NCBI GenBank assembly: GCA_018830645.1 | Contig: JAHJSA010000013.1 | Coordinates: forward strand, 62,001 to 126,000 | DNA: 64,000 nt | Source of the DNA: Actinomycetota bacterium | GTDB taxonomy: Bacteria > Actinomycetota > Thermoleophilia > RBG-16-64-13 | Reading direction: 5' to 3' | Shown: positions 30,633 to 46,624 of the stretch, piece by piece | How positions within the stretch are numbered: position 1 is the stretch's first letter | Layout of the letters: each line of letters begins with the position of its first letter | Program-made: the position numbers and the translations under genes | Notes under the pieces: generated by a model | Seen by the model: only the letters and a program-made list of their open reading frames with translations | Told to the model about the DNA's origin: nothing | Databases searched by the model: none

Positions 30633-31044
30633 GGTCCCCCCTCATTGCCGAGCGCCCTCGCGCCCCATGACGTGAACACGAACCACGGTATCAGGCGTCA
30701 TGGTGCCTACCAAGCTACATCGGCCACGAGGAACTTGACGCTCGGTAGGCCGTCGGTGACCACGTCCGTCGCGGTGCCGTCTCCGGGCCCGTCGTGCCCG
30801 TGGCGGTGCCCGTCGTCAGAGGAGGGCGGTCCGGAAGCTCCGCGCGCTTGACCGAGTCGGGCGCGCGCTGTTATGTTCATCGGGCTGCTCGGCCGGCCAC
30901 TGCTCCGTATTGGGTGGGTTGGCGGTTCGCGGACGGAAGTGAGGGCGCTTCCCACCACGCGAGTGCGTGGATGGGAGTGTCCTCTTTTCGTACGCCGGCA
31001 GGGCGGAGAGCGGCAAACGACCCGGCACCGAGAAGGGGGAATGT
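30633..31044. other. Intergenic stretch with promoter and an uncertain His-rich frame
   Basis: This 412-base gap separates the divergent dehalogenase-like and alcohol dehydrogenase genes. A plus-strand promoter is at 30848-30876. On the minus strand an open frame from ATG 30877 to 30707 would encode 56 residues with a DDGHRHGHDG cluster, 75 bases upstream of the dehalogenase-like gene. It has no clear ribosome binding site or homology, so it is not called as a gene. Confidence 0.3.
30848..30876 (+). promoter_or_regulatory. Promoter of the alcohol dehydrogenase group
   Basis: TTGACC (30848-30853) and TTATGT (30871-30876) are 17 bases apart. The leader before the ATG at 31045 would be about 160 bases; no operator of the CAGACGTCTG type is seen there. 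Confidence 0.5.
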
Positions 31045-32154
31045 ATGAAGATCAAGGCAGCGGTACTGAGGGAAGTGAACAAGGGCTACAGCTTCGAAGA
31101 GCTGGAGCTGGCGCCGCCCCAGGCGGGAGAAGTCCTGGTCAAGTACGCCTACACGGGCTTCTGCCACAGCGACCTGAGTGTGGCCAAGGGCCGCATCGGT
31201 ATCGCCCTGCCCCTCGTGGCCGGCCACGAGGCCGCGGGCGTCGTGGAGGCTGTGGGGCCCGGTGTCACCCGGGTGAAGGTAGGCGACCACGTGGCCAGCA
31301 CCTGGATGATCCCCTGCGGGGACTGTCCCGAGTGCCGTGGTGGGCTGGGGAACGTGTGCACGGGCAACTTCCCCCACTTCCTGGCGGGCACGATGCTCGA
31401 CGGTACCACCCGTCTCAGCGACGCCAAGGGCAACCCGGTGCTCCACGGCAACTTCGTATCTGGGTTCTCCGACTACACTGTCGTGCCTGAGACCGGAGTG
31501 GTCGCCATCCGGAAAGACATGCCTCTGGACTGGGCCGCCCTCATGAGTTGCTGTATCCCGACCGGGTGGGGTTCGGTGTCGAAGCTCGCCAATGTACAGC
31601 CGGGCCACAAGGTGGGCGTCTGGGGCATGGGCGGCGTTGGCCTCAACATCCTGAGGGCCGCCAAGATGCGCCAGGCGAACCCTATCATCGCGGTGGACCT
31701 CGAGGAATCGCGGCGTGAGCTGGCCATGGAGCTTGGGGCCACCCACTTCATCTGTAGCTCCAAAGACGACCCGGTCCCCATGATCCAAGACCTCACCGGC
31801 GGCGGCTTGGACATCGCGTTCGAAGCCATCGGAGACAAAGGGGCGATCGTGCAGGCATGGTGGTCTCTCGCCATGGCGGGGCGCCTCATGGTCATCGGGG
31901 TCATGCCGCAGGATCAAGTGGCCGAGATGCCGCTGACCTTCATGCCGCTTCAGCAGAAGTCCATCATCGGCGGGCTCTACGGGTCGATCTCCACGCACGA
32001 CGACATCCCCAAGCTCTGCGACCTCGCGGTGACGGGGGAGATGAAGCTCGATAGGATCATCGAGGGCAAGTTCAAGCTGGAGCAACTCAATGATATCGCC
32101 GAGAAGATGGAGAAGCGTCAGCTTGGCGGACGTTGGGTCTGCGAGTGGGACTGA
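31045..32154 (+). CDS. Zinc alcohol dehydrogenase of the NDMA/mycofactocin-dependent type
   Basis: The ATG at 31045 gives 369 residues. The catalytic zinc ligands lie in GFCHSDLS and AGHEAAG, the structural zinc ligands in PCGDCPECRGGLGNVC, and the nucleotide site in GVWGMGGVGLN. The segments LDGTTRLSD, SDYTVVPETGVV and SCCIPTGWGSV closely follow the NDMA-dependent alcohol dehydrogenase group. Members of that group hold NAD tightly and use mycofactocin as external electron acceptor (known for mycobacteria and relatives). The mycofactocin locus 15 kb downstream supports that use here, but a normal NAD-dependent enzyme cannot be excluded. The alcohol substrate is unknown. Confidence 0.78.
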   Translation: MKIKAAVLREVNKGYSFEELELAPPQAGEVLVKYAYTGFCHSDLSVAKGRIGIALPLVAGHEAAGVVEAVGPGVTRVKVGDHVASTWMIPCGDCPECRGGLGNVCTGNFPHFLAGTMLDGTTRLSDAKGNPVLHGNFVSGFSDYTVVPETGVVAIRKDMPLDWAALMSCCIPTGWGSVSKLANVQPGHKVGVWGMGGVGLNILRAAKMRQANPIIAVDLEESRRELAMELGATHFICSSKDDPVPMIQDLTGGGLDIAFEAIGDKGAIVQAWWSLAMAGRLMVIGVMPQDQVAEMPLTFMPLQQKSIIGGLYGSISTHDDIPKLCDLAVTGEMKLDRIIEGKFKLEQLNDIAEKMEKRQLGGRWVCEWD

Positions 32155-33211: not shown

Positions 33212-34159
33212 ATGCGTATCCTGGTCCTGGGAGCGGGCGCCATGGGGTGCCTCTTCGGCGGCCTGTTGCATCGGGCCGGGCACGACGTCACGCTGATCGA
33301 CGTGTCCGTTGCACAGATCGCGGCCATCAACGAAGCGGGTCTCATCTTGGAGCGGGGCGGCGAAACGCTCACTTTGCGGATACCGGCTGCCCTTGCGGCC
33401 GATGTCGGCGTGGCGCCCGAACTGGTCGTTCTTTTCACCAAGACCCTGCATTCGGAGGCCGCGCTGGAGTCGATCCGAGGCTTGATCGCTGATGACACCA
33501 TCCTCCTGTCGCTTCAGAACGGGCTGGGCAACGAGGAGGTGATGGCACGCTTCGTGCCCCGGGCCCGCATCGTCCAGGGAGTCACAACGTTCCCGGCGGA
33601 CCTCGTGGCGCCGGGTCACGTCCATTCCGTGGGTTTCGGCCATTCTCAGATCATGAGTCTCGACGGCCTCGTCACCCCTCGGCTCGAGAGCATCCGCGTG
33701 GCCTTGGATGACGCCGGTCTCGAGTGCGAGATCTCGCCGGAGGTCGCCACCGCCATCTGGGAGAAGGTCGCCTTCAACGCCGCGCTCAACACGCTGACGG
33801 CGGTCACGAGGCTGCGCATCGGCTCTATTGCCGATTCGCCGGAAGCCACAGATCTGGCCCGCCGTGTGGCGGAGGAGGTGGTGGAGGTGGCCAACCGCAA
33901 GGGCATCGGCGCGCGCAAGGAGGTCGTGCTGGCCACGATAGCGGGGGCGCTCGCGGAGCACCGCGAGCATCAGCCCTCCATGCTGCAGGATGTGCTGGCA
34001 GGGCGCCGCACCGAGGTGGGCTCACTGAACGGAGCCGTGGTGCGTGAGGCGGAGGCCATCGGCCTCCGCGTACCGTTCACCGAGGCCCTGTACCTCTTGG
34101 TACGCACTCTGGAAGCGGCGATTCCGGGGGATTCCGCGGCGCGTCTGGATCGTCCGTGA
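33212..34159 (+). CDS. Ketopantoate reductase (PanE/ApbA) family protein
   Basis: The 315-residue protein has the N-terminal NADP site MRILVLGAGAMGCLFGGLL and the family motifs SLQNGLGNEE and IWEKVAFNAALNTLTAVTR, where the Lys is the usual catalytic residue. The C-terminal part (EHQPSMLQDVLAGRRTEV, LNGAVV) is typical. PanE reduces 2-dehydropantoate for coenzyme A, but catabolic paralogues are common; this one sits in a dehydrogenase operon, which favours reduction or oxidation of another branched 2-oxo/2-hydroxy acid. Confidence 0.82.
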   Translation: MRILVLGAGAMGCLFGGLLHRAGHDVTLIDVSVAQIAAINEAGLILERGGETLTLRIPAALAADVGVAPELVVLFTKTLHSEAALESIRGLIADDTILLSLQNGLGNEEVMARFVPRARIVQGVTTFPADLVAPGHVHSVGFGHSQIMSLDGLVTPRLESIRVALDDAGLECEISPEVATAIWEKVAFNAALNTLTAVTRLRIGSIADSPEATDLARRVAEEVVEVANRKGIGARKEVVLATIAGALAEHREHQPSMLQDVLAGRRTEVGSLNGAVVREAEAIGLRVPFTEALYLLVRTLEAAIPGDSAARLDRP

Positions 34160-34171
34160 GGGCGTGGACTC

Positions 34172-34200
34172 TTGACTTCCGCGATACCTCCTGCTAGTTT
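34172..34200 (+). promoter_or_regulatory. Promoter of the VOC-transketolase operon
   Basis: TTGACT (34172-34177) and TAGTTT (34195-34200) are 17 bases apart, 180 bases upstream of the VOC gene. The predicted start of transcription falls in the operator pair at 34206-34232. Confidence 0.5.
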
Positions 34201-34205
34201 GCGGC

Positions 34206-34232
34206 CAGACGTCATGTACGCACAGACGTCTG
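34206..34232. promoter_or_regulatory. Two CAGACGTCTG-type operator boxes
   Basis: CAGACGTCAT (34206-34215) and the perfect palindrome CAGACGTCTG (34223-34232) are centred 17 bases apart. Related boxes lie at 46615, 56678 and 56801. The FCD-type GntR regulator encoded at 55825-56541 is the likely binder. Confidence 0.55.
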
Positions 34233-34269
34233 ACTTCGATGGTCGGGGAGTAGGCCGTCGGTGGGGGGT

Positions 34270-34318
34270 AATGGTGCTTCCCGATGCGATTCTCGCATTG
34301 TGGGAGGGCCATTTTTTT
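34270..34318 (+). terminator. Intrinsic terminator inside the operon leader
   Basis: AATGG (34270-34274) pairs with CCATT (34309-34313); inside it TCCC pairs with GGGA and ATGCGA with TCGCAT around a TTC loop. Seven T residues follow directly (34312-34318). It lies between the promoter at 34172 and the VOC gene at 34379, so it could act as an attenuator of the operon. Confidence 0.6.
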
Positions 34319-34378
34319 GTTCTCTTGGAAGGGGGATCGCGCGTTGGGATCTAGGTGCACCCGGCGGAAGGAGGAGCG

Positions 34379-34852
34379 ATGATGCACGGAGTGGATACTT
34401 CGGCATACGGGGTCCAGCCTCACCACGTGGGAGTGGTGGTGAGCGACATTGAAGCAGCCATCACCCACTTCGAGGCCCTTGGTTTCGGCCCGTTCAAGTT
34501 CAGCGACGAGGCCCGCACCTTCACCATCGACTTTGCGGGTGAGTATCGCGGGGAGCCGGCCGAGTGGAGCGTGACCATCAGCAACGCCAAGATGGGTGAT
34601 GTCGAGTTCGAGCTCCTACAGCCAAGCGGGGGTCCCTCGGCCCTGCGGGAGACTCTCGACGCGCACGGCGAGGGGATCCACCACATCGGCTTCATCACCG
34701 ACGATATACACCGCGACATCGCCGATCAGACTGCGCGTGGGGCCAAGATCTGGACCATGTCGCTTCGGGACGATGCCCCGAGCTTCCTGTTCTTCGAGCC
34801 GAGCACGGTCGGCGGCGTGGCCATAGAGTTGCGGACGGCGGGGGCCGACTGA
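34379..34852 (+). CDS. VOC-superfamily protein (glyoxalase/methylmalonyl-CoA epimerase-like)
   Basis: The ATG at 34379 follows GGAGGAG and gives 157 residues. Two VOC half-repeats are visible: HHVGVVVSDIEAAITHFEAL near the start and GIHHIGFITDDIHRDI in the middle, with metal-binding His in each and Glu in VEFELLQPSGG and VAIELRTAG. The pattern is close to methylmalonyl-CoA epimerase and glyoxalase, but substrate prediction is not safe. It is the first gene after the regulated promoter and leader terminator; the dehydrogenase gene begins one base before its stop ends. Confidence 0.75.
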   Translation: MMHGVDTSAYGVQPHHVGVVVSDIEAAITHFEALGFGPFKFSDEARTFTIDFAGEYRGEPAEWSVTISNAKMGDVEFELLQPSGGPSALRETLDAHGEGIHHIGFITDDIHRDIADQTARGAKIWTMSLRDDAPSFLFFEPSTVGGVAIELRTAGAD

Positions 34853-35880
34853 TGAAGGCCGCCGTGCAGTACGGCCCCAAGGACCTGAGGGTCGAGGACG
34901 TGGCCGAGCCTGTCTGCGGCTCCGGCGAGATCAAGGTGAAGATCGACTACTGCGGGGTGTGCGGCACCGACCTCGAGATCTACGAAGGTCGGTTCGGTCT
35001 CATGTACACGGAGGGGTGGCCCAAGGGCCCCAAGATAGAGGGGCACGAGGCGGCCGGAAGCATCGTCGAGGTGGGCCCCGGGACACGCCAAGGCTACCAA
35101 GTGGGCCAGAGGGTGGCCATGAACTTCCGCTCTTCGTGCGGGGCCTGCTACTACTGCCGCGACGGGCGCGAGCACTTCTGCGAACACGCGACGATGTCGG
35201 GCGGCTCTTTCGCCGAGTACGCGCTCTACCATGAGAGTGCGATCCACGTGCTCCCCGATGACGTGAGCACCCGGAAGGGAACTCTCCTCGAGCCTCTCAC
35301 GGTAGCCATGCACGTCACCGACCAAGCCGCGATCAAGCCCGGGGCCACGGTCGCCGTGTCCGGCGCAGGTACGATCGGGCTGCTGTCTCTGATGTTGGCG
35401 TTGCGGTCCGGGGCATCCACGGTGCTGGTCTCGGAGCCGGTGGAATCCAAGCGCCGGCTTGCCAAGGAGCTTGGCGCCACCGTGACGGTGGACCCGCTGA
35501 ATGAGGACGTGGGCGCGGTGGGCCGGGCTGCGACCGGGGGCAGGGGGTTCGACTCAGTCATCGAGATCAGCGGGAACCTGCGGGCCGCCCAGACCGCGCT
35601 GACTCTGGCCGACAGGTGCGGCACGATCGTGCTCGCCGGTGTGTACCCCCACGAGGAGACCATCCCGCTCAGCCCGTTCGATCTCTACGCCTCCGAGCTC
35701 ACCATCCGCTCGGCGATGGTTTCGCCGTACCTCTTCCCGCGCGCCGTGAACCTGCTCAGCCGGCTTGACGTGGAGCCCTTGATCTCGGCCACCTACCCGC
35801 TCGAGCACATAGTGGACGCGTTCGAGAACCATAGGGGCGGGAACGCTGTCAAGACACTCATCCAGCCTGGGCTTGCCTGA
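34852..35880 (+). CDS. Zinc-dependent polyol-type dehydrogenase
   Basis: The 342-residue medium-chain dehydrogenase has zinc ligands in CGVCGTDLE and EGHEAAG, structural zinc ligands in SCGACYYCRDGREHFC, and the nucleotide motif VSGAGTIGLLSL, followed by SEPVESKRR with an acidic residue after the second strand, which favours NAD. The sequence is closest to sorbitol/threonine/butanediol dehydrogenases. With a split transketolase downstream, a sugar-alcohol or keto-polyol pathway is plausible. The start overlaps the VOC stop by one base. Confidence 0.82.
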   Translation: MKAAVQYGPKDLRVEDVAEPVCGSGEIKVKIDYCGVCGTDLEIYEGRFGLMYTEGWPKGPKIEGHEAAGSIVEVGPGTRQGYQVGQRVAMNFRSSCGACYYCRDGREHFCEHATMSGGSFAEYALYHESAIHVLPDDVSTRKGTLLEPLTVAMHVTDQAAIKPGATVAVSGAGTIGLLSLMLALRSGASTVLVSEPVESKRRLAKELGATVTVDPLNEDVGAVGRAATGGRGFDSVIEISGNLRAAQTALTLADRCGTIVLAGVYPHEETIPLSPFDLYASELTIRSAMVSPYLFPRAVNLLSRLDVEPLISATYPLEHIVDAFENHRGGNAVKTLIQPGLA

Positions 35881-35919: not shown

Positions 35920-36123
35920 GTGACCGAGACCATCAACTGTGGGCACTGTCAGATGCTCCTCTATTTTGGCGAGGAGTTGAAACGGCGCCTCTACATGCGG
36001 GCGATCCCGTCGGAAGAAACGGTGCTCGGGTTCTACGGCGACACGTGTCCCCGATGCGGAGGCGCTCTCTCCATGGAGACCGTGAGAGTGGCTACCGAGG
36101 GGAGGGCCACGCATGGCTCATAA
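35920..36123 (+). CDS. Small zinc-ribbon protein
   Basis: The GTG at 35920 gives 67 residues with two Cys pairs, INCGHCQM and DTCPRCGG, spaced as in a zinc ribbon. No family name is recognised. Its end overlaps the start of the transketolase N-terminal subunit gene, so it is translated with it. Such small ribbons sometimes accompany enzyme subunits as assembly or regulatory parts. Confidence 0.6.
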   Translation: MTETINCGHCQMLLYFGEELKRRLYMRAIPSEETVLGFYGDTCPRCGGALSMETVRVATEGRATHGS

Positions 36124-37015
36124 CGACGCCCTCGTAGCTGAGCTGGAAGCCAAGTCGAACAAACTGCGGAGTCACTGCTTCACCCAGTTCTGCACCTTCG
36201 AGCAGGGTCATGCCGGCGGCACGATGTCGGTCGTGGACGTGGTGACGGCCTTGTATCTGCATCACATCAAGTTCGACCCGAAAGATCCCGATTGGCCAGA
36301 GCGCGACCGCGTGGTCATGTCGAAGGCGCACTGCTGTGAGGCCATCTACGCGGCGCTCGTGGAGCTGGGGGTCTACCCCGAGGAGACGCTGGGCACATAC
36401 TATTGCTACGGCTCGCCGTTCCAAGGTCACGCCGACCGCTGGTCTACCGCCGGCATCGATTACTCCGGCGGTTCCCTCGGACAAGGGCTCTCCTTCGCGG
36501 CCGGCATGGCCTACGCCGAGAAGCTCAAGATGATCCTCAAGCCGCCCAGCGCGGAAGAGACGTTCCTCCCCCGCTACATCAAGCGCTTCGATCCGGCCTA
36601 CCGCTCGTACTGCATCCTCGGCGACGGTGAGCTGCACGAAGGCCAGGTGTGGGAAGCCGCGATGTTCGCCAACAAGTTCAAGTTGGACAACCTCATCGCC
36701 ATCGTCGACTACAACAAGTGGAGCCTCGACGGCCCTACGAACGACGTGATGCCCATCGAGCCGCTGATGGACAAGTGGAAGGCCTTCGGCTGGTGGGTCA
36801 CCGAGATCGACGGGCACGACATGGGGCAGATCCTCGACGCGCTCGACCTCAGCAACCGCATGTACGGCGACAACAGGCCGAAGTGCATCATCGCCCATAC
36901 AGTCAAGGGCTACGGGGTGTCCCACTGGGAGACCCGGCGCATGCACCTGGGTCGCGGCGAAGAGATGATGAAAGGCGTGCGGGAAGGACGGGAGAAGTAT
37001 GGCGACGTACGGTAA
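36113..37015 (+). CDS. Transketolase-like N-terminal (thiamine diphosphate) subunit
   Basis: The 300-residue protein carries the thiamine diphosphate motif GDGELHEGQVWEAAMFANKFKL ending near IVDYNKWSLDG, and upstream GGSLGQGLSFAAGMA and HYAxG-like GHAGGTM sequence (EQGHAGGTMSVVDVVTALY). It corresponds to the first half of transketolase. Its partner begins 16 bases before its end. Split transketolases act in pentose pathways and in several sugar or sulfosugar catabolic routes. The substrate is not visible from sequence. Confidence 0.87.
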   Translation: MAHNDALVAELEAKSNKLRSHCFTQFCTFEQGHAGGTMSVVDVVTALYLHHIKFDPKDPDWPERDRVVMSKAHCCEAIYAALVELGVYPEETLGTYYCYGSPFQGHADRWSTAGIDYSGGSLGQGLSFAAGMAYAEKLKMILKPPSAEETFLPRYIKRFDPAYRSYCILGDGELHEGQVWEAAMFANKFKLDNLIAIVDYNKWSLDGPTNDVMPIEPLMDKWKAFGWWVTEIDGHDMGQILDALDLSNRMYGDNRPKCIIAHTVKGYGVSHWETRRMHLGRGEEMMKGVREGREKYGDVR

Positions 37016-37991
37016 GCACATCCAGATCGGCGAGCCCGTCCTCCCGGCCAAGGGCATCGAGAAGGCCCTCAAGGCAGCCGCCCAGAAGGACCCGCGCATC
37101 CTCCCCGTGCTGGAGGACATGGGCTTCCCCGGCATCGATTGGTGGACCGAGAACTACCCGGAGCGCATGGTAGAGGTGGGCATCGCCGAGCAGAACGGGG
37201 CGGTCGTTGCAGCCGCGCTCGCGGCTGAAGGGTTCGTCCCCGTTATCTACAGCTTCCTGTTCGCCAACATCGGCCGGGCCCTCAACCAGGTGCGCCAGAG
37301 CATCCTCGTCGACCGCTTCAACGTGAAGTTCATCGGGCGCGAAGGCGCGTGGGGCGAGGTGGGCATCTCGCACAACACCATAGAAGGCGTGGGCTACAGC
37401 CGAGTGCTCCCCAACTTGGTGATCATGAACCCGTCTGATGTAGTAGAGGCGGAGAAGGCCACCGAGGCCATGCTCCAATACCACGGGCCGGTCCTGCTGC
37501 GGCAGGAGTCCAGCCCCACGCCGCTGCGGGTGTTCACCGACGACTACCCCTTCAACATCGGCAAGGCCTACTGGGTCAAGGAAGGTTCAGACGCCACTAT
37601 CATCGCCACCGGCTACATGCTGACCGAAGCCATCGCGGCCATCGACCTGCTCGAGGCCGAAGGGCTGGACGTGGGAATCCTCAACATGTGCACGCTCAAG
37701 CCTCTCGACGTCACCGCTATCGTCGAAGCGTCCGAGCGGTCGGGGGCGATCGTCACCGCCGAGAATGCCAGCATCATCGGTGGCCTGGGAGAAGGCGTGG
37801 CGGCGGCGCTTGCCGAGAACCTCCCCGCGCCCATGGTGCGAGTGGGCATCGAAGATGAGTTCAGCCAATCGGGGCTTATCACTCCCGAGCGGGACGATCT
37901 CAAGATACACTTCGGATTGCGGGCGGAGGATCTGGTGGTGTCGGTGAAGGAGTGCATCGCCAAGAAAACGAGACTCCGGTGCCGCGACTAG
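36999..37991 (+). CDS. Transketolase-like C-terminal subunit
   Basis: The 330-residue protein has the pyrimidine-binding domain (GIAEQNGAVVAAALAAEG with the catalytic Glu in IAEQN) and the C-terminal transketolase domain (EGLDVGILNMCTLKPLDV and VTAENASIIGGLGEGVA). Together with the preceding gene it forms a complete enzyme. The message probably continues after it to the ABC transporter genes, although a 130-base gap follows. Confidence 0.87.
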   Translation: MATYGKHIQIGEPVLPAKGIEKALKAAAQKDPRILPVLEDMGFPGIDWWTENYPERMVEVGIAEQNGAVVAAALAAEGFVPVIYSFLFANIGRALNQVRQSILVDRFNVKFIGREGAWGEVGISHNTIEGVGYSRVLPNLVIMNPSDVVEAEKATEAMLQYHGPVLLRQESSPTPLRVFTDDYPFNIGKAYWVKEGSDATIIATGYMLTEAIAAIDLLEAEGLDVGILNMCTLKPLDVTAIVEASERSGAIVTAENASIIGGLGEGVAAALAENLPAPMVRVGIEDEFSQSGLITPERDDLKIHFGLRAEDLVVSVKECIAKKTRLRCRD

Positions 37992-38121: not shown

Positions 38122-39447
38122 GTGAAACACAGAAGACTTCTTCTCATCGGGGCGGCACTCATGGTGCTCGCTCTCGTCGCCGTATCGCTGGCGGCATGCG
38201 GTTCCACCACGACCACGACCGCGGCACCGGCAACGACCGACACGACCGCCGCAACGACCGACACCACCGCCGCAGGCGTTGAGATGGGCGATGACATCGT
38301 CATAGGCGCCATCAACTCATTGACCGGCTCGAACGTGCTGACCGGCCAAGAGGAGAAATGGGCGCAAGAGAAGGCTGCCGCGGACATCAACGCCAAGGGC
38401 GGTATCAAGCTCGCCGACGGCAAGATGCACAATGTCGTGCTGAAGTACTACGACGACAAGAGCCAGCCCACCGAGGGCGCCTCGGCCATGGAGAAGATGA
38501 TCAAGACCGACGGCATCAAGATCGCCCTGAGCTCGAACATCACTCCGGTCAACCAGGCGGCAGCGCAGGTGGCCGAGAAGTACGAGGCCTACTACCACAT
38601 CACGTCCAGCTGGACGGACGAAGCCAGCCCGGACGGATCGTTCCCGGGATTCATCGGCGGCATGGATCTTAAGTGGGCCACCGACATGTTCGAGTCGGCC
38701 GGCGATGCCGGCCTCGTGGCCATCGGCGGGGTCAATGCGATGGATGAGGCCGACCGTCCGACCAAGTTCGCCGTCATGACGGAGAACACGCCGGACGGCG
38801 TTGGTTTCGGCGACGGCACCAAGGCCGGTCTCGAGGCGCAGGGTTGGGAAGTCGTGTCGTACGAGAAGTTCGTCGAGGGCAACAAGGACTTCTCCTCGAT
38901 CATCCTGAAGTTCAAGGAAGCGGGCGTCGACGGGGTGGTCACCCTGATCGCTCCCACCGACGGCATCACGTTCGTCAAGCAGATGAAAGAGCAGAACTGG
39001 GCGCCGAAGTACCTGTTCGGGTACAAGGGGTTCTGGCCCGTCGACTTCTACGCGGGTCTCGGTGATGACGCGGACTACATCGGCTACGACGGCTTCTGGT
39101 CGGAGACCTTGCCGTACCCGTATGCCAAGGAGCTGGGCCAGGCCTTCCAGGATGACCACAACGGCAATACGTCCAACAGCGTGGGCCTCTACTACGCCGC
39201 GGCGCAGATCCTGTTCATGGCCATCGAGAGGGCCGGATCGACCGACCCCGGCGCCGTGAGGGACGAGGTCTTCAACGGCAGCTTCCCCGGCACCACGATG
39301 GGCGACATCACGTACAACGACCAAGGCATCGCCGACATCCCGTTCCTCGCGTTCCAATGGGCCGCAGGTGGGGAGCGCGTGGTGCTCTACCCGACGGAAG
39401 TCGCCACCGGCAAGACGGTGACGTTCGTTCCCTGGGACGAGAGGTAG
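38122..39447 (+). CDS. ABC transporter substrate-binding lipoprotein, branched-chain amino acid type
   Basis: The GTG at 38122 follows AAAGGGGG and gives 441 residues. The signal peptide ends at the lipobox LAAC, followed by a Thr/Ala-rich linker (TTTTTAAPATTDTTAATTDT). The mature part has the LivJ/LivK fold: IVIGAINSLTGSNVLTGQEE at the start and long domains ending VTFVPWDER. Proteins of this type bind amino acids, amides, urea or aromatic compounds; the following corrinoid methyltransferase genes hint at a methylated ligand. It begins the transporter gene group. Confidence 0.87.
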   Translation: MKHRRLLLIGAALMVLALVAVSLAACGSTTTTTAAPATTDTTAATTDTTAAGVEMGDDIVIGAINSLTGSNVLTGQEEKWAQEKAAADINAKGGIKLADGKMHNVVLKYYDDKSQPTEGASAMEKMIKTDGIKIALSSNITPVNQAAAQVAEKYEAYYHITSSWTDEASPDGSFPGFIGGMDLKWATDMFESAGDAGLVAIGGVNAMDEADRPTKFAVMTENTPDGVGFGDGTKAGLEAQGWEVVSYEKFVEGNKDFSSIILKFKEAGVDGVVTLIAPTDGITFVKQMKEQNWAPKYLFGYKGFWPVDFYAGLGDDADYIGYDGFWSETLPYPYAKELGQAFQDDHNGNTSNSVGLYYAAAQILFMAIERAGSTDPGAVRDEVFNGSFPGTTMGDITYNDQGIADIPFLAFQWAAGGERVVLYPTEVATGKTVTFVPWDER

Positions 39448-39473
39448 ACGGCAGCCAGACTGTCGGAAGCACA

Positions 39474-39504
39474 CCCACCCTCCTCGACGTTCGGGGAGGG
39501 TGGG
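39474..39504 (+). terminator. Hairpin after the binding-protein gene
   Basis: CCCACCCTCC (39474-39483) pairs with GGAGGGTGGG (39495-39504). There is no T run. It may act as a partial terminator that favours the binding protein over the downstream transporter genes. Confidence 0.5.
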
Positions 39505-39660
39505 AAGTCTCGCACCGCCGGAGTATCAATGCAGAAGTAGGCTGCATGGGCAGCCCACCGATGGGTGTCCACATGTCCTAAGACGTCGGACCGCGGGGTA
39601 TGGAATCGTGATGCACGATGCAGATCAGCCGAGGGGTCATATGCTAGGCGGTAGTCCATC

Positions 39661-40401
39661 ATGATGGCTGTCGGCGCGCCTCTTCTTACGCTGAGCGGAG
39701 TCTCGAAGCACTTCGGAGGTCTGCAGGTCATCAACGACCTGGATTTCGTCGTGCACGAGACCGAGACCGTGGGGCTCATAGGTCCCAACGGGGCCGGCAA
39801 GAGCACGGTGTTCAATCTCATCACCTCCATCTACCAGCCTGATCGCGGCAGCATCACGTTCAAGGGAACCGAGATCACAGGCCTGGCGCCTCACAAGATC
39901 TGTCACATGGGCATATCCCGCACGTACCAGCTTGTGAGGGCGTTCCTCAAGATGACGGTGATGCAGAACGTCATGACGGCGGCCGTCTATGGCGTGAAGC
40001 ATCACGAACAAAGTCCCAAGCAGCGCGCCGCCGAGGCTCTCGAGTTGGTCGAGTTGTCTCACAAGCGCGACGTCAACGCGGCGCACTTGACCCTGTCGGA
40101 CAGACGCTTGCTCGAGATAGCCATGGGCTTGTCGTCGATGCCGAGTCTGATCTTGCTCGATGAACCGATGGCGGGCCTCACCGAAGTCGAGATCCAGCAC
40201 CTGCTCGAGGTGATCGGGACGACGCGAGACGAGCGGAGCTTCTCCATCCTGTGGATCGAGCACAAAGTGGACGCGGTTCTGGATTTCTGTGACCGCGTGG
40301 GTGTTATCGACTACGGCGTCAAGATCGCCGACGGCTGTCCCGACGACGTGGCCTGCGACGCGAAGGTCATCGAGGCGTACTTAGGAGAACCAGTTGCTTG
40401 A
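39661..40401 (+). CDS. livG: ABC transporter ATP-binding protein, LivG type
   Basis: The 246-residue protein has Walker A (GPNGAGKST), Walker B (LILLDEPMAGLT) and the switch His (WIEHKVDAVLDFCDRV). The signature region reads HLTLSDRRLLEIAMG, so the usual Gly of the LSxGQ/LSYGD motif is replaced by Ser, a departure worth noting. The length and C-terminal extension are those of LivG. A second ATG at 39664 is an alternative start. It overlaps the LivF gene by eight bases. Confidence 0.86.
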   Translation: MMAVGAPLLTLSGVSKHFGGLQVINDLDFVVHETETVGLIGPNGAGKSTVFNLITSIYQPDRGSITFKGTEITGLAPHKICHMGISRTYQLVRAFLKMTVMQNVMTAAVYGVKHHEQSPKQRAAEALELVELSHKRDVNAAHLTLSDRRLLEIAMGLSSMPSLILLDEPMAGLTEVEIQHLLEVIGTTRDERSFSILWIEHKVDAVLDFCDRVGVIDYGVKIADGCPDDVACDAKVIEAYLGEPVA

Positions 40402-46614: not shown

Positions 46615-46624
46615 CAGACGTCTG
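46615..46624. promoter_or_regulatory. CAGACGTCTG operator box at the SDR operon promoter
   Basis: The perfect palindrome lies on the minus strand directly after a TTGACT -35-like element and before TAAGAA, so a bound repressor would block the promoter of the genes at 46529-45354. It is also about 100 bases upstream of the mftA promoter. Confidence 0.5.

Follow-up and report, generated by a model that had tools for sequence, protein, structure and literature searches.

A putative protein-controlled attenuator ahead of a VOC operon, with a hexaloop hairpin that recurs in two further leaders

Before RNA polymerase could reach the first gene of the operon studied here, it would have to cross a predicted intrinsic terminator, which raises the question of whether this hairpin acts as a regulated attenuator and, if so, what acts on it. 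The operon lies in a stretch of 64,000 nucleotides (hereafter the window; G000:C97:62001-126000) from a genome of 3.87 Mb, G000. Comparisons drew on a set of 61 genomes, including 18 of the family, and one pattern search covered 399 genomes of the class. Two relatives are referred to throughout: G001, the closest relative compared, belongs to the same genus as G000, and G005 belongs to another genus of the same family.

All genes of the operon are on the forward strand. The first (34379..34852) encodes a protein of the VOC (glyoxalase) superfamily (PF13669, E 1.6e-18), and its ATG at 34379 is preceded by a Shine-Dalgarno-like GGAGGAG (34370..34376) that is kept in G001. It is followed by a zinc alcohol dehydrogenase-type gene (34852..35880), a small open reading frame with two CxxC pairs and no Pfam match (35920..36123; kept in G001 and seven other family genomes), and the N-terminal (36113..37015; PF00456) and C-terminal (36999..37991; PF02779, PF02780) halves of a transketolase. 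Upstream of and co-directional with the operon lie a malate/lactate dehydrogenase-like gene and a ketopantoate-reductase-like (ApbA-like) gene, the latter with its stop at 34159. Together, these genes point to catabolism of the alcohol, aldehyde, and sugar type, along with a branched-chain-type ABC transporter. The set of VOC gene, alcohol dehydrogenase (ADH) gene, small open reading frame, and split transketolase is retained in seven other family genomes, six of which have ABC permease genes ahead of it instead of the ApbA-like gene. Viral contigs were also searched for VOC relatives, and none was confirmed. At 39447-39661 of the window, between a substrate-binding protein gene and ABC genes, a hairpin without a T-tract and a AGACGTCGGAC box are both kept in G001.

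Promoter, boxes, and terminator of the VOC leader

The original prediction placed a promoter at 34172, followed by tandem operator boxes, and both elements are present. The predicted promoter (TTGACT-17-TAGTTT; 34172..34200, forward strand) has its -35 hexamer at 34172-34177 and its -10 hexamer, TAGTTT, at 34195-34200; in G001 and G005, the two hexamers are retained at the same distance from each other. A consensus promoter scanner did not report it, as TAGTTT matches TATAAT at 3 of 6 positions and falls below the threshold, so that the promoter call rests on this conservation. Two operator-like boxes follow on the same strand: box 1, CAGACGTC, at the predicted transcription start (34206..34213; kept in G001, absent in G005), and box 2, CAGACGTCTG (34223..34232). 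They are copies of each other, 17 bases apart. The CAGACGTC part of box 2 is kept in both relatives; since the palindrome of this box (TCTG) reads TCAG in each of them, CAGACGTC is its only constant part.

G000 contains 9 exact matches to the pattern CAGACGTCWGA, spread over 8 places, 4 of which fall within 42 kb of contig C97 (34223, 46615, and 56678 of the window; C97:138276), where the boxes adjoin promoter-like sequences or gene starts as judged by eye. Allowing one mismatch gave 83 matches against 70 for a reversed-pattern control; as this is not far above the control, the case for these boxes lies in their clustering and not in their count. The CAGACGTCWGA-like boxes on C97 probably form a local regulon, and a DNA-binding regulator probably sets initiation while the leader sets elongation. 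At other promoters or gene starts on C97, such boxes stand at 46615 and 56678 of the window and at about 1524 and 12377 of locus L153; the genes found there are small monooxygenase-like (by eye), AMP-binding, SDR, and epimerase genes.

The stem and seven T residues predicted at 34270-34318, ahead of the first gene, were likewise confirmed. On the forward strand, the hairpin occupies 34270-34313 and the T-tract 34312-34318. Folding 34268-34320 gives -27.2 kcal/mol, where shuffled versions average -12.2 (z -5.4) and none of 200 does as well; z is also about -5.4 in G001, where the stem is unchanged and the two differences in the terminator both fall in the loop. A fold of the leader RNA from 34207 to 34378 gave z -2.84, with 1 of 200 shuffles as good. 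A consensus terminator scanner picked up the inner part of the hairpin only, among 4 terminator-like sites called in 6 kb, where 2.5 were expected. Between the promoter and the terminator lies hairpin B (34236..34261, forward strand), with a 9-bp stem and an 8-base loop, folding at -13.3 kcal/mol; in G001, one U-G pair of its stem has become U-A, and the other changes are confined to the loop.

From the -35 hexamer to the T-tract, 139 of 148 columns are identical in G000 and G001 (five segments summed); from 34318 to the gene, 38 of 48 are, with gaps making up 3 of the differing columns. Between the same genomes, third codon positions agree at 62.8% in the VOC gene and 72.7% in the ApbA-like gene, and four other intergenic stretches are 61% to 81% conserved. 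Another short stretch between genes, 34 bases further along the operon (from the ADH gene to the small open reading frame), is as conserved as the leader (37/39). An operon start behind 34318 had been named as the outcome that would speak against the original prediction; no promoter was seen there by eye or in two consensus scans, one of which would also overlook weak promoters. The prediction had recognised no known riboswitch, and Rfam agrees, with 0 gathering hits in the 64-kb window and just two chance-level hits (E 1.6 and E 4) on 34160-34420.

A DNA search with the leader across the 61 genomes aligned G001 over nearly the whole query and G005 over its first 55 bases; the remaining matches were short and weak (best E 0.0025). 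ABC permease genes precede the VOC orthologues in G012, G015, G017, G011, G002, and G006, and for this reason no comparable leader is found in these six genomes. G005 has the same two upstream genes as G000, then the same promoter and one box, after which a different leader follows, with an extra alcohol dehydrogenase gene ahead of the VOC gene. This leader contains neither a U-tract hairpin (by the scan described below) nor the hairpin X of the next section, folds no better than shuffled sequences, and belongs to a genome without an ANTAR gene.

Hairpin X in the VOC, ADH, and AOR leaders

In folds of growing prefixes of the VOC leader, the 5' arm of the terminator first pairs with an upstream G-run, and the full terminator wins later. 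The early hairpin, X (34264..34281, forward strand; GGGGGU[AAUGGU]GCUUCC, with the loop in brackets), has the 5' arm of the terminator as its 3' arm, and is proposed as an antiterminator from these folds, this overlap, and its recurrence. X folds at about -9 kcal/mol against -27 to -34 kcal/mol for the leader terminators, so that the terminator should win without a bound factor. The energy competition is not exceptional in itself, as equally good competitors arise among shuffled upstream stretches, 72 of 300 for G000 and 38 of 300 for G001.

X is found in two further leaders. One of them, which spans 30848-31045 of the window, comprises a predicted promoter (TTGACC-18-TATGTT, 30848..30877; kept in G001), X (30935..30952; GGAAGU[GAGGGC]GCUUCC), and a terminator hairpin (30941..30988; -34.0 kcal/mol), and is followed by an alcohol dehydrogenase gene (31045..32154, start codon inferred), all on the forward strand. 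Its T-tract has only four T residues in G000, which is why the scans overlooked it, and seven in G001. The third X copy of G001 precedes an alcohol dehydrogenase gene and is thus the counterpart of the copy at 30935. The other leader (L153:7822-7968, on C97 outside the window), 37 kb from the VOC leader, runs from the ANTAR gene to an aldehyde ferredoxin oxidoreductase (AOR) gene. It holds the strongest U-tract hairpin of the scan (L153:7866-7908), whose 5' half is near-identical to that of the VOC terminator and whose 3' half is different, and its X (GGAAGU[GAAGGC]GCUUCC) begins at the predicted transcription start. In G001, all three X leaders lie on one contig.

The general form of X is GGRRGU-RANGGY-GCUUCC. 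G at loop position 4 (G4) is present in all three leaders, and A at position 1 (A1) in the VOC leader only, with G in the AOR and ADH leaders; loop bases 1 and 6 can pair (A-U or G-C), leaving a tetraloop. In all three leaders of both genomes, X overlaps the 5' arm of the terminator. X and this arm are what the leaders have in common, as the 3' arms differ yet still pair, and the 3' half of the AOR terminator differs even between G000 and G001 with pairing retained. An antiterminator would be expected to constrain the 5' half in this way, over and above the pairing of the terminator. Over the 23 bases around X, the two genomes agree at 23/23 in two leaders and at 21/23 in the third. All 7 pairs of X hold in every row, with one two-sided change; covariation is weak, since 4 distinct rows are too few for it and 123 of 500 shuffles reach the score.

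The complete list of exact matches to the 18-mer GGRRGTRANGGYGCTTCC comprises 3 in G000 and 3 in G001, which are the leaders described here, and 2 in the other 59 genomes, one in G011 and one in G045. A search with a 16-mer of the terminator 5' half, tolerating at most one mismatch, gave two exact hits in G000, both in leader terminators, and two exact ones among the matches listed for the other 60 genomes, in the VOC leader of G001 and in G026. The pattern of X followed by T5 was found at 7 places in the 399 class genomes (2 in G000, 3 in G001, and 1 each in G106 and G267). Less favourably for X, in a laxer scan 4 of 86 U-tract hairpins had an overlapping G4 hexaloop (the VOC and AOR leaders, and L154 and L269 in G000), compared with 55 of 4300 when the upstream bases were shuffled.

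A mobile repeat was rejected: the leaders share no more than X and the 5' arm of the terminator, with different flanks and 3' arms, and the three places are orthologous in G001. In G011, the exact X (G011:C152:7202-7219, minus strand; L353) has a hairpin and TTTT behind it, with an SDR-like gene about 280 bases further on.

The ANTAR regulator and known antitermination systems

A profile search found a single ANTAR protein in G000 (67.5 bits against a cut-off of 27.3). This receiver-ANTAR response regulator (C97:133072-133668) is encoded 37 kb from the VOC leader, with the gene for a FIST-HisKA_2 kinase before it and the AOR leader directly after it. G001 also has one ANTAR protein, the same regulator at 91% identity, and the C-terminal half of the kinase is present there (88% over 502 residues, in the stretch examined). 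The other 16 family genomes, some of them incomplete, gave no ANTAR match, which leaves G000 and G001 as the only 2 of 18 in the family; outside the family, 17 of 43 genomes had a match. Since the X leaders come from two genomes of one genus, the co-occurrence of X and ANTAR counts as a single event. The best solved relatives of the regulator are Rv1626 and EutV. By hand count on the alignment, 2 of the 8 RNA-contacting residues of EutV are identical (K143, M172), 3 are similar (K147 to R, Y164 to F, R177 to K), and 3 are changed (R168 to Q, N173 to D, R175 to N); the F and Q at the positions of Y164 and R168 are also found in Rv1626.

In the eut leaders, AGCAANGRRGCUY lies in the 5' part of the terminators, and eutP requires two hairpins, with the first (P1) and A1 both needed (PMC3369931). 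X resembles the second hairpin (P2) of EutV targets, and a count by hand has it matching this consensus at 10 of 13 positions in all three leaders. The EutV-RNA structure has one hexaloop contacted, with G4 as the sole base-specific contact and A1 uncontacted (PMC8934654), and an X that keeps G4 but not A1 fits these contacts. The same paper redefines the minimal ANTAR motif as a single hexaloop and urges work on single-hexaloop targets (PMC8934654). A P1 with A1 and G4 (at least 3 pairs) was found before X in none of the three leaders; in the AOR leader there is no room for one, as X stands at the predicted transcription start. G4-only hairpins kept in both genomes lie over the predicted -10 in the AOR leader, 3 bases before X in the ADH leader, and far upstream in the VOC leader. 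Dual A1/G4 hexaloops (at least 5 pairs per stem) followed by a T-run were also looked for on each strand of the window and of three flanking pieces, with 0 matches.

The locus resembles EutV/EutW of Enterococcus faecalis in that a receiver-ANTAR regulator is encoded next to a histidine kinase, one catabolic region contains several leaders, the 5' part of the terminators can form a G4 hexaloop hairpin, and the 13-base core is similar (PMC3369931, PMC8934654). Unlike in eut, there is no P1 here, A1 is in one of three loops, the loop-closing pair is U-G and not C-G, the kinase has a FIST domain, and CAGACGTC boxes stand at the VOC operon promoter. NasR/nasF of Klebsiella oxytoca likewise combines an ANTAR protein with a hexaloop hairpin overlapping a leader terminator (PMC7496416). 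NasR carries a NIT domain that senses nitrate, favours a pair of hairpins over a single one (about 1 uM versus about 12 uM), and prefers a C-G loop-closing pair, whereas X has U-G (PMC7496416). The known actinobacterial ANTAR-target RNAs are, similarly, high-GC leaders near catabolic genes; they are defined as dual stem-loops with a linker of 2-25 bases, and few are at terminators, whereas all three X copies are (PMC8164766). Among open-access titles and abstracts, none was found that describes such a single-hexaloop leader set; subscription papers and preprints fell outside this search. Judged by its sequence, X is probably a single-hexaloop variant of ANTAR antitermination rather than a proven member. 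The three leaders are likely to work like an ANTAR antiterminator, and calling them canonical ANTAR targets is not supported.

Proposed mechanism and competing readings

In the mechanism we propose, RNA polymerase would start at the promoter with the CAGACGTC boxes and stop by default at the T7 terminator about 110 bases on. In the emerging RNA, X could form first and occupy the 5' arm of the terminator, and a protein holding X would block the terminator, so that the operon is read. X would be the probable on/off switch, with the genes read only when the signal is present. The likely protein is the only ANTAR response regulator of the genome, which the FIST/HisKA_2 kinase from the preceding gene would activate and which would act on three leaders (VOC operon, ADH gene, AOR gene), much as EutV does on several eut leaders.

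That the VOC leader is a regulated attenuator with X as its antiterminator appears quite probable. We consider it reasonably likely that the ANTAR protein is the factor acting on X, and we lean towards the whole explanation, a protein-controlled attenuator with the ANTAR regulator acting on three leaders. The attenuator idea of the original prediction is thus supported by the sequence and could be extended from one leader to three; X, its copy at 30935, and the ANTAR gene had no part in that prediction. More tentatively, and with somewhat less than even confidence, we suggest a natural single-hexaloop ANTAR regulon without the recruitment hairpin P1 or a fixed A1, in which a FIST kinase and a receiver-ANTAR regulator serve at least three leaders in a region of alcohol/aldehyde catabolism and a DNA-binding regulator acts at CAGACGTC. 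The single-hexaloop question becomes directly testable here, as both genomes have three leaders that share one conserved hexaloop hairpin and lie near a sole ANTAR gene.

An ordinary, unregulated terminator could end transcription of the malate/lactate dehydrogenase-like and ketopantoate-reductase-like genes, or insulate the operon. The hairpin is the first terminator seen after the ApbA-like stop at 34159, the genes are co-directional, and G005 manages without the hairpin. However, the hairpin lies 110 bases past that stop, a conserved promoter precedes it, none can be seen from there to the VOC gene, and a plain terminator needs neither the shared 5' half nor X, all of which makes this reading improbable. 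It is also unlikely that the attenuator is controlled by another RNA-binding protein that recognises X, with the nearby ANTAR gene a coincidence: one of the three leaders comes after the only ANTAR gene, which, within the family, occurs in the same two genomes only. In favour of another protein, the X loop and P1 fall short of the full ANTAR rules, and G011, which has one X with a hairpin and T4, gave no ANTAR protein match.

A riboswitch, with the terminator controlled through small-molecule binding to hairpin B and its neighbours, would agree with the conservation of B and its one pair-keeping change, and other leaders of G000 are riboswitches. With no Rfam match in the window or the leader, no B seen in the ADH and AOR leaders, and almost no RNA before X in the latter, we regard it as very improbable; as for the RNA sensor that the original prediction had raised, a protein-binding hairpin is likelier than a ligand-binding aptamer. 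Very little weight is also given to leader-peptide attenuation, or to a free small RNA that would end at the T-tract after about 110 bases. Open frames cross the VOC leader, but by eye none is kept between G000 and G001, as a loop insertion shifts the frame and the ATG at 34214 is GTG in G001. A promoter and a terminator would yield a discrete RNA, but three leaders with only X in common are unlike one small RNA. The plain terminator, the aptamer, the leader peptide, and the free small RNA were each rejected on these points.

Elsewhere in the genome, a scan of 1.69 Mb of G000 (84 pieces, with home-made gene calls) found 35 U-tract hairpins, 15 of them outside genes, and 9 of these 15 sit at most 150 bases ahead of a co-directional gene. 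Rfam, run on 7 pieces, placed riboswitches directly before two of these hairpins. One is a cobalamin riboswitch (L268:3942-4128; 31.8 bits against a cut-off of 31.5) with a U-tract terminator and a gene resembling that of a corrinoid activation protein; the other is a c-di-GMP-I riboswitch (L293:2140-2257) with a terminator, ahead of a pilin-like gene. Given the leader positions and the Rfam riboswitches, a strong U-tract hairpin before a gene is often regulatory in G000. The VOC leader resembles these two attenuators in having a U-tract terminator in the leader before a co-directional gene, but they have a known upstream aptamer, and it matches none. At L161:3040-2992 (minus strand), a U-tract hairpin with no Rfam match lies 29 bases before a gene, near a TATACT box, and is possibly a further attenuator.
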